From positions 1 to 32,296 of the forward strand of contig DYJV01000026.1 of the NCBI GenBank assembly GCA_020722945.1: a stretch of DNA of 32,296 nucleotides, read 5' to 3'. The notes under the pieces are model-generated. The model did no database searches and had not been told where the DNA came from. It was given only the letters and a program-made list of their open reading frames with translations. The position numbers were made by a program, and so were the translations under genes. This document shows positions 5,618-15,764 of this stretch, piece by piece (the stretch's first letter is position 1; each line of letters starts with the position of its first letter). Origin of the DNA: Candidatus Methylomirabilis sp. (lineage in GTDB: Bacteria; DYJV01).

Positions 5618-6568
5618 TTAAAAGTTTTTCAGAGCAAAAAATTTTATTAGAAAGATGATTAATACAAATATTACAGAAGATGTATAAAGGATAAAGTAAC
5701 TTTTCTTTATATGAGTCAGTGTAAGTGCCTCGACTTCATCACCTATAAAAGGTTTATCTTTCCACTCTCCGAAGTATGGAGTTGGTCCACCAAGTTGAAT
5801 CCTAAGTGCACCTGCAACAGCAGACTCACTCCAACCACTATTGGGACTCTCAATATTATTATGATCCCTTACCATAACATTAAAAGCTCTCTTCCAGTCG
5901 TATTGCAGGATAAAAGCTGATAGTAGTATTGTTATCCCACTTAATCTTGCAGGTATAAAATTTAGTATATCATCAAGTTTGGCAGAAAAAAAACCGAAAT
6001 CGAGATATTTGCTATTTTTGTATCCAACCATTGAATCAAGGGTATTAACAGCTTTATAGACAAATGCAGCTTCAACACCACCTATTGCAAAATAAAATAG
6101 TGGAGCAATTATCCCATCATTGAGATTTTCTGAAACAGTTTCAATTACACTTCTTGTGATATCTCTATTTTGAAGCTCTTTAGTATCCCTGCTAACAATA
6201 AAGCTAAGATTAATCCGTGCTGAAACTAAATCATTTTTAGCGAGTGCATCAGCAACTTTTTTGCTCTCAAGATGGAGGCTTCTGATAGATAGAGTAAAAC
6301 TTCCCAAAATTGAAGTTAGCAGAAGATATGTATATTTGTCAAATAACTTGAATATATTTTTTAAACCGTAAACAGATATAAAAGTTATAACTATAACAGT
6401 GAGGAGTAAGATTAGTCCAGCTAATTTTCTGTTTTTTACAGTTGTAAGAATATTTTCTAAAAAAGTTATAACTTTTCCTATCATAACAATAGGGTGAGGG
6501 AATATCATTGGTGGATCGCCAAAGATAATATCTATTAAAAAAGCATAGAGAAACAAAAAATCATTCAT
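5618..6568 (-). CDS. cbiB: Adenosylcobinamide-phosphate synthase CbiB
   Basis: A 316-aa polytopic membrane protein that joins adenosylcobyric acid to an aminopropanol (phosphate) in cobalamin synthesis. Family landmarks are IDIIFGDPPMIFPHPIVMIG (about 12-31), VSRDTKELQNRDITRSVIET, ETVSENLNDGIIAPLFYFA and AVNTLDSMVGY. It is the only cobamide gene seen in the window and is embedded in an operon with a glycosyltransferase and an ABC exporter, away from any other cob/cbi gene. No cobalamin riboswitch was seen before the operon. Start ATG lies 3 nt after the stop of the upstream fusion gene. Confidence 0.92.
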   Translation of the reverse strand: MNDFLFLYAFLIDIIFGDPPMIFPHPIVMIGKVITFLENILTTVKNRKLAGLILLLTVIVITFISVYGLKNIFKLFDKYTYLLLTSILGSFTLSIRSLHLESKKVADALAKNDLVSARINLSFIVSRDTKELQNRDITRSVIETVSENLNDGIIAPLFYFAIGGVEAAFVYKAVNTLDSMVGYKNSKYLDFGFFSAKLDDILNFIPARLSGITILLSAFILQYDWKRAFNVMVRDHNNIESPNSGWSESAVAGALRIQLGGPTPYFGEWKDKPFIGDEVEALTLTHIKKSYFILYTSSVIFVLIIFLIKFFALKNF

Positions 6569-6571
6569 AGA

Positions 6572-8500
6572 TTAAATTCTCTTTATAATCTCCATTCTGT
6601 CCCTGCAAGAATCAAGAATCATTTCCAACATTTTACTATAAGATATATCTGCTATCTTTGCCATTTTTGAGAGGTGCCCATCCCAACACCATCCAGGGTT
6701 TGGATTTACCTCCAGAAGTTTAGGATTCCCCTCTGAATCAAGTCTCCAATCAAATCTTGCATAATCATGGCAGTCGAGCCTTTCAAATAGTTTAAGGCAG
6801 CTTGCAATAATGAATCTTTCAATATCCTCTGTTAGATTTGCTTTTATAGATGTTATTTCCCAATAAGGCGAGGATGGGTCCCATTTTGCTTCATATCCAC
6901 AAATTTTTGGTAAATCTTCAGGAAGAGATGAGTAATCCTCCTCTATAATTGGAAGAGCAGTGTAAGATATAGTTGGATTGCCAATTATACCAACACTTAG
7001 ATCTTTACCTGTAAGGAACTCCTCGATTAATATGGGGTTGTTGTAACCAAATTTATCCCTTACCTGAATTATAGCATTTTCAAATGTTCCAACGTCGTAA
7101 CATACATTTTGGGTTGTAATTCCATAACTTGAATCGCCAAAGTTAGGTTTGACAATTACTGGAAAATTAAGTGAAAAATCTATAAAATTTATATCATCTG
7201 GTTTTATTATAAAAGCTTTTGCAACAGGAATTTCTATCTCATTTGCAATTCCTCTTATCAGTGATTTGTCGTAACAGGATGAGAGGCATTGTGGTGTCCC
7301 TCCTGAATAGTTAAGCCCAAACATCTCCAGTAGAGCTGGAATGTGAAGCTCTTTTTTCGGGTCATTGTTAAAACCTTCATCGCAAAGATTAAAAACAAAA
7401 CTATATTTATCCTTTAGTTTTAGGAGATCTTTAAATAATGTATCGTGATTATTTAGATAGATGAAATCGTATTTGCTGATATTTGAAAGTGCCTTTTTTA
7501 ACTCTTCTATTGTGTAAAAATCGTCATCATCAAATTTGGAATTGGGCTTTATTAGATCTTTTTTATTAGGATCACCCATTAGAACTAAAACAGTCTCCCT
7601 CTTTGTGGTGCTTTTTTTAATAACAGTGGGAGACTTTTTTATATTTGCAGTAATGAGTATCCTTTTGGACATCATGCCAAGATCTTGATTACGTTTTGAA
7701 TTGGAGGATAATTTGAGATTGTCAACTATATTTGAAAAACCTACACTATTTAGTATGTTAAATATCTCTTCAAAGCTGTAAAGTCTTTCAGCGTAAAATT
7801 GGTCAGCGACAACACCCTTTGTTACATGTGTGACCACCTCTCTTGAAATTAATCTCTCACCGTTTTTTGAAAGTGAACGTTCCCTACAAACAAAATAGTT
7901 ATGGTCTATCCACTCCCATGTTCTTGGGGTATAGTGTGTTCTCATATAAGTCCCGTCGGTAATGTCTATTAATAGTTTCCCATCAGGTTTGAGAACTCTT
8001 TTTACCTCTTCAAGAACTCTTTTATCTTCGTTTGCAGATTCAAAATATCCGAAACTATTCCCAGCTATTATGATTATATCAAATCGGTCATTTTTAAATC
8101 TCAGCTTTCTTGCATCACCCTCTCTAAATTCGATATTAAGGTGTGCCTGTTCACTTAGTTTCTTGGCTCTGTTTATCAGATAGTGAGACCTGTCTGTGCC
8201 TGCAATATTTTTATAGCCACGTTTTGCAAGCTCTATTGTATGGCGTCCCTGCCCACAGCAGAGGTCAAGAATAGAGTCATCTTTATTAGGTTTGAGAATA
8301 TCAAGAAATATATCAACTTCATATTTTGTTATCTCAATATCCTCAACAACATCACCGTCAGTTCTTAAATAGTTTGCATTAAAGATATATCTCCACCAGT
8401 CTGCCTTAACATAATTTTCGAGGTCCTCTACAGGGCCTAAAACTTTAACTAACGTTTCCTGATTTTTTAATTTATTTTTAGGTGCTTTATCTTCTTTCAA
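6572..8500 (-). CDS. Class I SAM methyltransferase fused to a D-Ala-D-Ala ligase-like ATP-grasp enzyme
   Basis: Two enzymes in one 642-aa chain. Residues about 35-285 form a SAM-dependent methyltransferase (motif I ILDLCCGQG at 77-85, post-I acidic TD at 102-103, motif IV region DIIIIAGNSFGYFE). After a basic linker (about 287-302), residues 303-642 form an ATP-grasp ligase like Ddl: ALLEMFGLNYSG (389-400), K451 in VKPNFGDSSYG, EEFLTGKDLSVG (493-504), D584 in RFDWR, and LEVNPNPGW (596-604). A carboxylate-amine ligation coupled to a methyl transfer is likely; the substrates are unknown. The start is TTG with AGGGG 7 nt upstream, and no in-frame ATG occurs before the methyltransferase core. First gene of the operon. 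Confidence 0.88.
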   Translation of the reverse strand: MKEDKAPKNKLKNQETLVKVLGPVEDLENYVKADWWRYIFNANYLRTDGDVVEDIEITKYEVDIFLDILKPNKDDSILDLCCGQGRHTIELAKRGYKNIAGTDRSHYLINRAKKLSEQAHLNIEFREGDARKLRFKNDRFDIIIIAGNSFGYFESANEDKRVLEEVKRVLKPDGKLLIDITDGTYMRTHYTPRTWEWIDHNYFVCRERSLSKNGERLISREVVTHVTKGVVADQFYAERLYSFEEIFNILNSVGFSNIVDNLKLSSNSKRNQDLGMMSKRILITANIKKSPTVIKKSTTKRETVLVLMGDPNKKDLIKPNSKFDDDDFYTIEELKKALSNISKYDFIYLNNHDTLFKDLLKLKDKYSFVFNLCDEGFNNDPKKELHIPALLEMFGLNYSGGTPQCLSSCYDKSLIRGIANEIEIPVAKAFIIKPDDINFIDFSLNFPVIVKPNFGDSSYGITTQNVCYDVGTFENAIIQVRDKFGYNNPILIEEFLTGKDLSVGIIGNPTISYTALPIIEEDYSSLPEDLPKICGYEAKWDPSSPYWEITSIKANLTEDIERFIIASCLKLFERLDCHDYARFDWRLDSEGNPKLLEVNPNPGWCWDGHLSKMAKIADISYSKMLEMILDSCRDRMEIIKRI

Positions 8501-9168: not shown

Positions 9169-9588
9169 ATGAAGTATAAAATTTGTGTTATTGATGGTCA
9201 GGGTGGAGGAATTGGAAGCTCTATTATAAAGAGGGTAAAAGAGGAGTTTACAGACTCAGTAGAGATAATTGCTATTGGGACCAACTCTATTGCTACTGCT
9301 GCCATGCTCAAATCTAAAGCAAATAAAGGTGCCACAGGTGAAAATTCTATAAAATATGTTGTAAATAAAGTTGATATAATAATTGGTCCTATATCAATTA
9401 TCATAGGGGATTCAATGCTTGGAGAGCTTACTCCTAAAATGGCATATTGGATATCTTCAGCAAAAGTAAAGAAGATTTTTCTCCCATATACTCAGGAAGA
9501 TATAGAGATTGTTGGGTTGAAGTTTGAGCCATTGCCACATATGATAGAGAAGTTGATTATAAGATTAAAGGAGATAATAAATGTGTGA
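9169..9588 (+). CDS. DUF3842 family protein
   Basis: A 139-aa protein with a conserved N-terminus KICVIDGQGGGIGSSII (4-20) that looks like a glycine-rich nucleotide-binding loop, followed by a Rossmann-like alternation and the conserved stretches IGTNSIATAAMLKSKANKGATGEN and VDIIIGPISIIIGDSMLGE. This matches the uncharacterised DUF3842 family; no reaction is known to me. It overlaps the start of cooT by 8 nt, so the two are translated together, which hints at a role in nickel handling or CO/acetyl-CoA metabolism. ATG 9169 is chosen because the glycine-rich loop begins ten residues later. Confidence 0.82.
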   Translation: MKYKICVIDGQGGGIGSSIIKRVKEEFTDSVEIIAIGTNSIATAAMLKSKANKGATGENSIKYVVNKVDIIIGPISIIIGDSMLGELTPKMAYWISSAKVKKIFLPYTQEDIEIVGLKFEPLPHMIEKLIIRLKEIINV

Positions 9589-14349: not shown

Positions 14350-15090
14350 TTAATTTTTATTTTTTAGATATTCTCTATTTAAGGCATTAAATATTAATAC
14401 TGCAAGACTTATTAATAATTTTTTTGAATAAAAATTTAAAGTATCTTTTGTTACCATTAATTTTTTGCTGCTTTCAGACTCTATATATCTGAATTTTATG
14501 TTTTTTATAGGGTGAATATCAATTGTAATCTGATCTTTTTTTACTGTGTAATCTTGAATTATGTTAAAGTGCTCAATATTTTTTAATATCTCCCTGATGT
14601 TCATCTGGTTTTTGTAGCATTTGTTGAGTATAAGATTTTTGTATTTTTTGTCTGAGGTAATGTTTTCTATTTCGATAAAATCATCATTTTGAAGAATATT
14701 TGTGTGAAAATCTTTATTGTATCCTATTATTGAGAGACAAGTAAGGTATATCATTGCAAAACCGTAAAGCTCTTCTATTGGGTGAACCCCACTCTCTTTG
14801 CTGAAAAACATAGCAAAATTATCACCTTTTTTGATGTTACGCTCACAGATAAAGTATATTTCAAGTGATGGAATAGGATTGAAATATATGACCCAATTGA
14901 AAAATGAGAAAATTTTTGAATTCATAATTTGACCATTTAGAAAATTGGATATTTGGTCTATTTGGGCGTCATCTAAATTTTTGAGATTGTTGTAATGTTT
15001 GATTTTAATGTGTTGTTTCAGTTTGCCATTCCACTTCCACCCATTAGGGAAAGAATTAAGATTGACAAAAGGCATAATGTTGTTTAACAT
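14350..15090 (-). CDS. Protein of unknown function paired with an ArsM-like methyltransferase
   Basis: A 246-aa soluble protein with no signal peptide. The middle part is the most structured: FNPIPSLEIYFICER (70-84), KGDNFAMFFSKESGVHPIE (88-106) and ELYGFAMIYLTCLSIIGY (107-124). This layout (a proline-rich phrase, then an acidic/aromatic segment, then a helix) faintly recalls DUF3786-type proteins, but I would not assign it. The first codon overlaps the end of the methyltransferase gene by 7 nt, so the two are translationally coupled. It lies 15 nt before the exported thiol oxidoreductase. Confidence 0.75.
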   Translation of the reverse strand: MLNNIMPFVNLNSFPNGWKWNGKLKQHIKIKHYNNLKNLDDAQIDQISNFLNGQIMNSKIFSFFNWVIYFNPIPSLEIYFICERNIKKGDNFAMFFSKESGVHPIEELYGFAMIYLTCLSIIGYNKDFHTNILQNDDFIEIENITSDKKYKNLILNKCYKNQMNIREILKNIEHFNIIQDYTVKKDQITIDIHPIKNIKFRYIESESSKKLMVTKDTLNFYSKKLLISLAVLIFNALNREYLKNKN

Positions 15091-15764
15091 TTTTTAAATA
15101 AAAATCTCACTCTTTTAAATTTTTCTACCTGCTCATACTCTTCTTTTGATAATAACAAAAAACCTTCTTTCTCTGCAATAGCAATCATTTTATCAATTGT
15201 AATGCAACCACCAAGACACCAACACCATGCGTCTATGTCTTTGATGCACTCGTCAAATTTATGCTCGGTAAAAAGATCTGAAATTATCAGTAAACCTCTT
15301 GATTTTAGTGCATAATTTGACTTTGAAATTAAAGACAACTTATCCAAAATAATATTCATACTACCATTCATTAAAATAATGTCAAATGATTTTTTTTTAA
15401 AGTTAATTTCTTCAATATTTCCAATAATTTTCATTATATTGGGGTGTTTAATCCCTTCTAATATAAAAGTTTCTGATATGTCAACTTCAATCACTTTCTC
15501 TGCCCCTTCTCGAACTGCTGCAATAGAATCAAGTCCTATTCCTGAACCAAGATTAAGCAAAGTTGATCCTTTTACTCTGATATTTTTGAAAGGGTATGCT
15601 ATTGGAAATGCAAATTTAGTAAAATTTTTGTATTCTGCGATAACATCTTCAGGATAACCAAATTGAATAAATGAATTTAAATCAGATAAATTTAGCAGAT
15701 TTGGGTTGGATGTAGAGTATGTTTTTCTGATTTCATAAGAGAGCTGGTTTTTGAAATTTTCCAT
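15084..15764 (-). CDS. ArsM-like SAM-dependent methyltransferase with a Cys-rich loop
   Basis: A 226-aa class I methyltransferase. The N-terminal segment FIQFGYPEDVIAEY (32-45) and motif I LLNLGSGIGLDSIAA (69-83), followed by VIEVDIS (91-97), match the arsenite methyltransferase superfamily. After the core, AWCWCLGGCIT (179-189) lies where ArsM enzymes have a conserved Cys, and the chain ends in Cys226. With C173, C181, C183 and C187 it has a cluster able to bind a thiophilic metal or metalloid. No arsR, arsB or arsC is nearby, so the substrate is not settled. Start ATG has only a weak ribosome site. Confidence 0.8.
   Translation of the reverse strand: MENFKNQLSYEIRKTYSTSNPNLLNLSDLNSFIQFGYPEDVIAEYKNFTKFAFPIAYPFKNIRVKGSTLLNLGSGIGLDSIAAVREGAEKVIEVDISETFILEGIKHPNIMKIIGNIEEINFKKKSFDIILMNGSMNIILDKLSLISKSNYALKSRGLLIISDLFTEHKFDECIKDIDAWCWCLGGCITIDKMIAIAEKEGFLLLSKEEYEQVEKFKRVRFLFKKC

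Follow-up and report, generated by a model that had tools for sequence, protein, structure and literature searches.

The locus encodes a methyltransferase fused to a Ddl-like ligase

The stretch of DNA analysed here (32,296 nucleotides, hereafter the window) carries on its minus strand an open reading frame, running from 8500 to 6572 with no internal stops, in which a methyltransferase (MT) is joined to an ATP-grasp ligase resembling D-Ala-D-Ala ligase (Ddl). Just 5' of its TTG start lies the stretch AGGGGA, which, read by eye, looks like a ribosome-binding site. The features of the locus are:

6572..8500, minus strand: fused methyltransferase / Ddl-like ATP-grasp ligase gene (642 aa, TTG start)
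7625..8449, minus strand: methyltransferase half (residues about 18-292)
8246..8272, minus strand: SAM-binding motif I, ILDLCCGQG (residues 77-85; D79, G83 and G85 invariant in 98 members)
7601..7624, minus strand: linker between the halves (residues 293-300, low confidence; pLDDT <50 at 295-298, AlphaFold)
6575..7600, minus strand: Ddl-like ATP-grasp ligase half (residues about 301-642; Pfam, alignment and fold comparison)
6674..6691, minus strand: family signature WCWDGH (residues 604-609), in place of the GMTxxS substrate loop of Ddl
5618..6568, minus strand: cobD/cbiB, 3 bp downstream of the fusion on the same strand, a local neighbour only

Downstream of the fusion, cobD is followed by glycosyltransferase, ABC transporter and MoxR genes. 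Upstream, on the opposite strand, lies a gene for a DUF3842 protein (9169-9588, plus strand, E 1.8e-52), and elsewhere in the window a second methyltransferase (226 aa, 15084-15764, minus strand) overlaps a 246-aa protein without a Pfam match (14350-15764).

Pfam placed Methyltransf_25 at residues 77-174 (E 1.5e-22) and Dala_Dala_lig_C at residues 442-629 (E 1.1e-22) of the fusion protein, and the MT half additionally contains a conserved cap region (W195..Y241) and an RNQDLGMM motif. In an AlphaFold model of the 642-aa protein, built from 74 natural homologues, both halves were folded (mean pLDDT 86) and the linker at 295-298 had low confidence; how the halves sit relative to each other was set aside because of a pTM of 0.59. 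Pfam, the model and the conserved residues bear out the central claim of the preliminary description, that one chain holds a complete class I MT and a complete D-Ala-D-Ala ligase-like half, and the motif positions it gave (ILDLCCGQG at 77-85, K451, D584, E597, N599) were all correct. Scanning 84,980 species genomes yielded at least 523 confirmed relatives. In all 80 of the best-matching loci among these the fusion was full-length, spanning approximately residues 10-638 in one piece (58-72% identity in the best segment), which excludes two separate genes and refutes the possibility that the fusion occurs only here. The MT-ligase fusion is thus confirmed as real and is neither a frameshift nor an artefact.

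The ligase half is of the Ddl type and is not the housekeeping Ddl

Judging from their predicted catalytic sites, which are intact, both halves look active. The MT half has the Rossmann core, motif I and the acidic ribose-binding residue of class I SAM-dependent methyltransferases, and the SAM-site residues D79, G83, G85 and D103 were invariant in 98 of 98 aligned members. In the ligase half, the equivalents of Ddl Lys97, Lys144, Lys215, Arg255, Asp257, Glu270, Asn272 and Gly276 were likewise invariant in all 98 (we take the numbering and the roles of these residues to be those established for E. coli DdlB), and the Ser150 position was occupied by Ser in 93 members and by Ala in five. The half has the ATP-grasp fold together with the Lys97, Lys144, Asp257, Glu270 and Asn272 equivalents, and in a fold comparison it matched Ddl and D-Ala-D-Lac ligases with Z 25-29.

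This agreement in fold and in ATP- and Mg-binding residues is what would be expected of a Ddl or Van-type cell-wall precursor ligase fused to a methyltransferase, a reading that we nevertheless regard as highly improbable. All three substrate residues of Ddl (Glu15, Tyr216, Ser281) are replaced: in an alignment with true Ddl proteins, the Tyr216 position was Trp and the Ser281 position Gly in 98 of 98 fusion members, the GMTxxS loop read GWCWDG, and the N-terminal ERxIS motif that holds Glu15 was absent, with GDPxxxDxxKPxxxFD(D/E)D in its place. The fusion scored 103 bits with the best curated NCBIfam Ddl model, far below its cut-off of 243. A separate true Ddl is encoded elsewhere in the same genome, on contig C55 (184.9 bits with the Pfam model versus 83.6 for the fusion ORF). 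The fusion also occurs in archaea (see below), and since archaea lack murein this argues against a cell-wall Ddl. No mur or fts context was found among the scanned genes of the window, as the preliminary description had noted when it proposed that the ligase is probably not the housekeeping Ddl. This proposal stands: by its sequence, the ligase half is predicted to work like a Ddl-type ligase, falls outside Ddl membership and is not a housekeeping Ddl.

The methyltransferase half is related to N-methyltransferases

Among solved structures, 9ri2 came nearest in sequence to the MT half (E 4.6e-28); it is NmbA, a bacillithiol N-methyltransferase whose target is the cysteine amine of bacillithiol (PMC12719100). 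Other fold neighbours were mostly N-methyltransferases acting on amino sugars, peptides and glycine (CypM, TylM1, GSMT, GNMT), and some were C-methyltransferases (PsmD, SeMT). With NmbA closest and N-methyltransferases prevailing among the fold neighbours, an amine is the best guess for the methyl target; the acceptor atom is uncertain, an amino group being most likely by analogy.

The relation to NmbA (PMC12719100, PMC6282198) raises the question of whether the product may be a low-molecular-weight thiol carrying an N-methyl group, or else a related peptide with a redox or metal-binding function, and at one locus (L110) a glutathionylspermidine-synthetase/CHAP protein is encoded downstream of an AstE-like gene. 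The identity between the MT half and NmbA is, however, only 25-28%, and bacillithiol cannot be an obligatory substrate: the BshC family was absent from the window's own genome and was present in 6 of 26 fusion carriers compared with 76 of 386 genomes overall, so that carriers are close to background and show no enrichment. We consider the thiol quite unlikely.

The fusion is scattered across bacteria and archaea

Among the best 80 relatives, bacterial carriers belonged to Pseudomonadota, Planctomycetota, Nitrospirota, Spirochaetota, Atribacterota, Thermodesulfobacteriota and others, and archaeal carriers to Methanomicrobiaceae, Methanophagales, Lokiarchaeota and Jordarchaeia; many of these genomes are metagenome-assembled, so single taxon assignments may be wrong. 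Three Methanomicrobiaceae fusions formed one fully supported clade in the tree. Of 386 broadly sampled bacterial genomes, about 24 carried the full-length fusion and two further copies were cut by contig ends. The fusion tree mixed phyla (32 label changes versus a minimum of 17), suggesting frequent transfer. Plasmid or phage carriage was rejected, as neither the plasmid nor the phage collection contained a full-length match. A role in anti-phage defence was also dismissed, the sole PADLOC match (mads_2) covering just MT residues 59-185.

One relative (locus L111, genome G126) has the MT half only. It is nested among fused sequences, although its precise branching point is not marked by a star in the tree, and this position within the fused clade led us to reject it as the ancestral state; it is consistent with a later loss of the ligase after a single fusion event. 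The preliminary description had taken the fusion to imply that ligation and methylation act on the same substrate. From the fusion we infer that the two halves probably, rather than necessarily, act together on one substrate or in one pathway, because the fusion persists and the single close relative that has just the MT half branches within the fused sequences.

The gene is mostly solitary and has an AstE-like partner in some lineages

Clustering of the neighbouring genes at 80 to 98 loci revealed no conserved operon, and the earlier expectation that the fusion would recur in the same operon was not borne out: the gene is mostly solitary, cobD was next to it in none of the other neighbour clusters examined, and the gene order of the window was not seen elsewhere. 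Two gene families were over-represented close to the fusion. CorA-type transporters lay within the two nearest genes in 8 of 98 loci, representing about five lineages, and never further out (Fisher 3.7e-4, inner versus outer positions, an optimistic value because the loci are partly related). An AstE/DoeB-like zinc amidohydrolase accompanied the fusion at 10 of the 98 loci, adjacent in nine and one gene away in the tenth (Fisher 5.1e-5 for the two nearest genes versus outer positions, optimistic for the same reason). Members of this subfamily are 39-62% identical to the first member. The partner has the AstE_AspA catalytic domain with the HxxE and His metal ligands and the catalytic Glu, its metal-site pattern (H53, E56, H141, E205) being intact.

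The association extends beyond physical proximity. Four of the 386 genomes scored near or above 400 bits for the AstE subfamily, the next best scoring 160. The fusion is present in each of these four, and in three of them it and the AstE-like gene are on different contigs. In a second set, comprising 52 genomes from the phylum of genome G081 and including the SAR324 genome of locus L040, the subfamily was present in five genomes, all among the six that bear the fusion; one genome is shared with the first set. Across both sets, about 435 genomes, the subfamily was detected in eight, and 8 of these 8 have the fusion (hypergeometric 1.6e-5 and 2.3e-6 for the two sets, 2.0e-10 combined, uncorrected for kinship). 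Most fusion carriers are without the partner, which is absent from the window and was not found in the window's genome at E 1e-30. Such nesting of the hydrolase within the fusion carriers fits an enzyme acting on the product of the fusion. An M42-like peptidase, which adjoins the fusion in two loci, was rejected as a second partner, its sole owner among the 386 genomes lacking the fusion.

Several loci have additional genes. At L110 (7914-14025) the fusion, the AstE-like gene, the glutathionylspermidine-synthetase/CHAP protein gene and an MFS transporter gene stand in a row, possibly a fuller pathway. A gene of the N-formylglutamate amidohydrolase family, another N-acyl amino acid hydrolase, follows the fusion at L151 (6366-9335, genome G430), and at L044 (14043-16026), some four kb away from the fusion, a RimK-type ligase lies beside a more distant AstE-like gene.

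DoeB acts in ectoine catabolism. It was the best curated match of the AstE-like partner, though below that model's cut-off, and this match bears on whether the product of the fusion is a stress solute (an osmolyte or piezolyte), that is, a methylated dipeptide-like compatible solute degraded by the AstE-like enzyme. The CorA-type transporters, Kef-type antiporters near the fusion in three loci and the presence of GSMT, an osmolyte enzyme, among the fold neighbours of the MT half point in the same direction. The ions that CorA transports, however, are divalent cations, which does not point to salt stress in particular, and MscS channels were not enriched near the fusion in the 98 loci. A stress solute seems to us rather unlikely. 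A piezophile-specific extra 'D-Ala-D-Ala ligase' in Colwellia (PMC7542103) is a lead only, as a candidate member of the fusion family.

The neighbourhood also bears on whether the fusion modifies proteins or peptides (RiPP-like or tagging) and not a metabolite. Several enzymes with a fold close to that of the MT half have peptide substrates (CypM, YunM, CgnL, LahSB), but no precursor-like small gene (ORFs of at least 60 aa) or operon recurs alongside the fusion, the ligase is of the Ddl type and not of the graspetide type, and a partner of the AspA/AstE type points to chemistry on N-acyl amino acids. This makes a peptide-modifying role very unlikely.

A one-gene route to a methylated amide is proposed

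On balance we lean towards a bifunctional small-molecule enzyme that methylates an amine-bearing compound and joins it by an amide bond, the AstE-like partner hydrolysing the product in those genomes that have it. The C-terminal half would use ATP to activate a carboxylate as an acyl phosphate, as in other ATP-grasp enzymes, and would couple it to an amine, giving an amide bond by Ddl-like chemistry on other substrates. Either before or after this coupling, the N-terminal half would methylate its target with SAM as the donor, the acceptor most likely being an amino group. The product would be a small methylated amide or dipeptide-like metabolite made without an operon, on which the dedicated AstE/DoeB-like zinc amidohydrolase of some lineages would act, probably in recycling or trimming. 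An amide bond is suggested by the ATP-grasp chemistry together with the dedicated amidohydrolase, and a pathway that needs no operon fits the scattered, mostly solitary distribution of the gene. We infer the amide product, the N-methylation and the hydrolysis by the partner alike. The product could be a stress solute, a compound that resembles thiols or binds metals, or another metabolite, and the evidence favours none of these candidates.

More tentatively, the fusion could constitute an undescribed, widespread one-gene pathway to a new methylated amide that bacteria and archaea share and that a dedicated amidohydrolase turns over. We found no published account of an MT-ligase fusion in open-access full texts, and an earlier description is possible. 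Public annotation probably hides the fusion under 'methyltransferase' or 'D-Ala-D-Ala ligase'. Active sites that hardly change across distant phyla and archaea point to a common metabolite. With both chemistries in one protein, this product could be sought from a single expressed gene, and the AstE-like partner offers an independent handle on the bond that the fusion forms.

Comparison with known systems

Two kinds of system resemble one half of the fusion. A standalone MT found near FabH-like and DUF885 genes is 36-38% identical over the whole MT half and shares its N-terminal WW motif, but lacks the ligase and forms a separate, well supported clade. Such a relative lies near a DUF885 protein identified by Pfam at L117 (4157-8149), and near similar-looking and FabH-like genes, read by eye, at L112, L113 and L114; this is a separate recurrent cluster. 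Tandem Ddl-like ligases with a GNAT protein (L118, L123) are approximately 27-34% identical to the ligase half and, unlike the fusion, comprise two separate ligases each, beside polyamine enzymes or an HDAC-like protein. At L118 (6086-10780) they accompany pyruvoyl arginine decarboxylase, arginase-family and deoxyhypusine-synthase-like proteins, and at L123 (4079-8337) they adjoin the HDAC-like protein. These tandem ligases look like a polyamine-amide system.

Of the characterized enzymes with solved structures, NmbA is nearest to the MT half in sequence, yet it is distant in identity and standalone, and the fusion carriers do not depend on its bacillithiol pathway, as tested via BshC. The AstE-like partner shares the AstE_AspA catalytic domain with DoeB and aspartoacylase but, unlike DoeB, belongs to a distinct subfamily tied to the fusion and scores far below the DoeB cut-off. 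With Ddl, VanA and LmDdl2 the fusion shares the whole ATP-grasp fold, the ATP and Mg residues and the Arg255 and Lys215 equivalents; unlike these ligases, it carries an MT, Trp for Tyr216, Gly for Ser281 and the WCWDGH signature.
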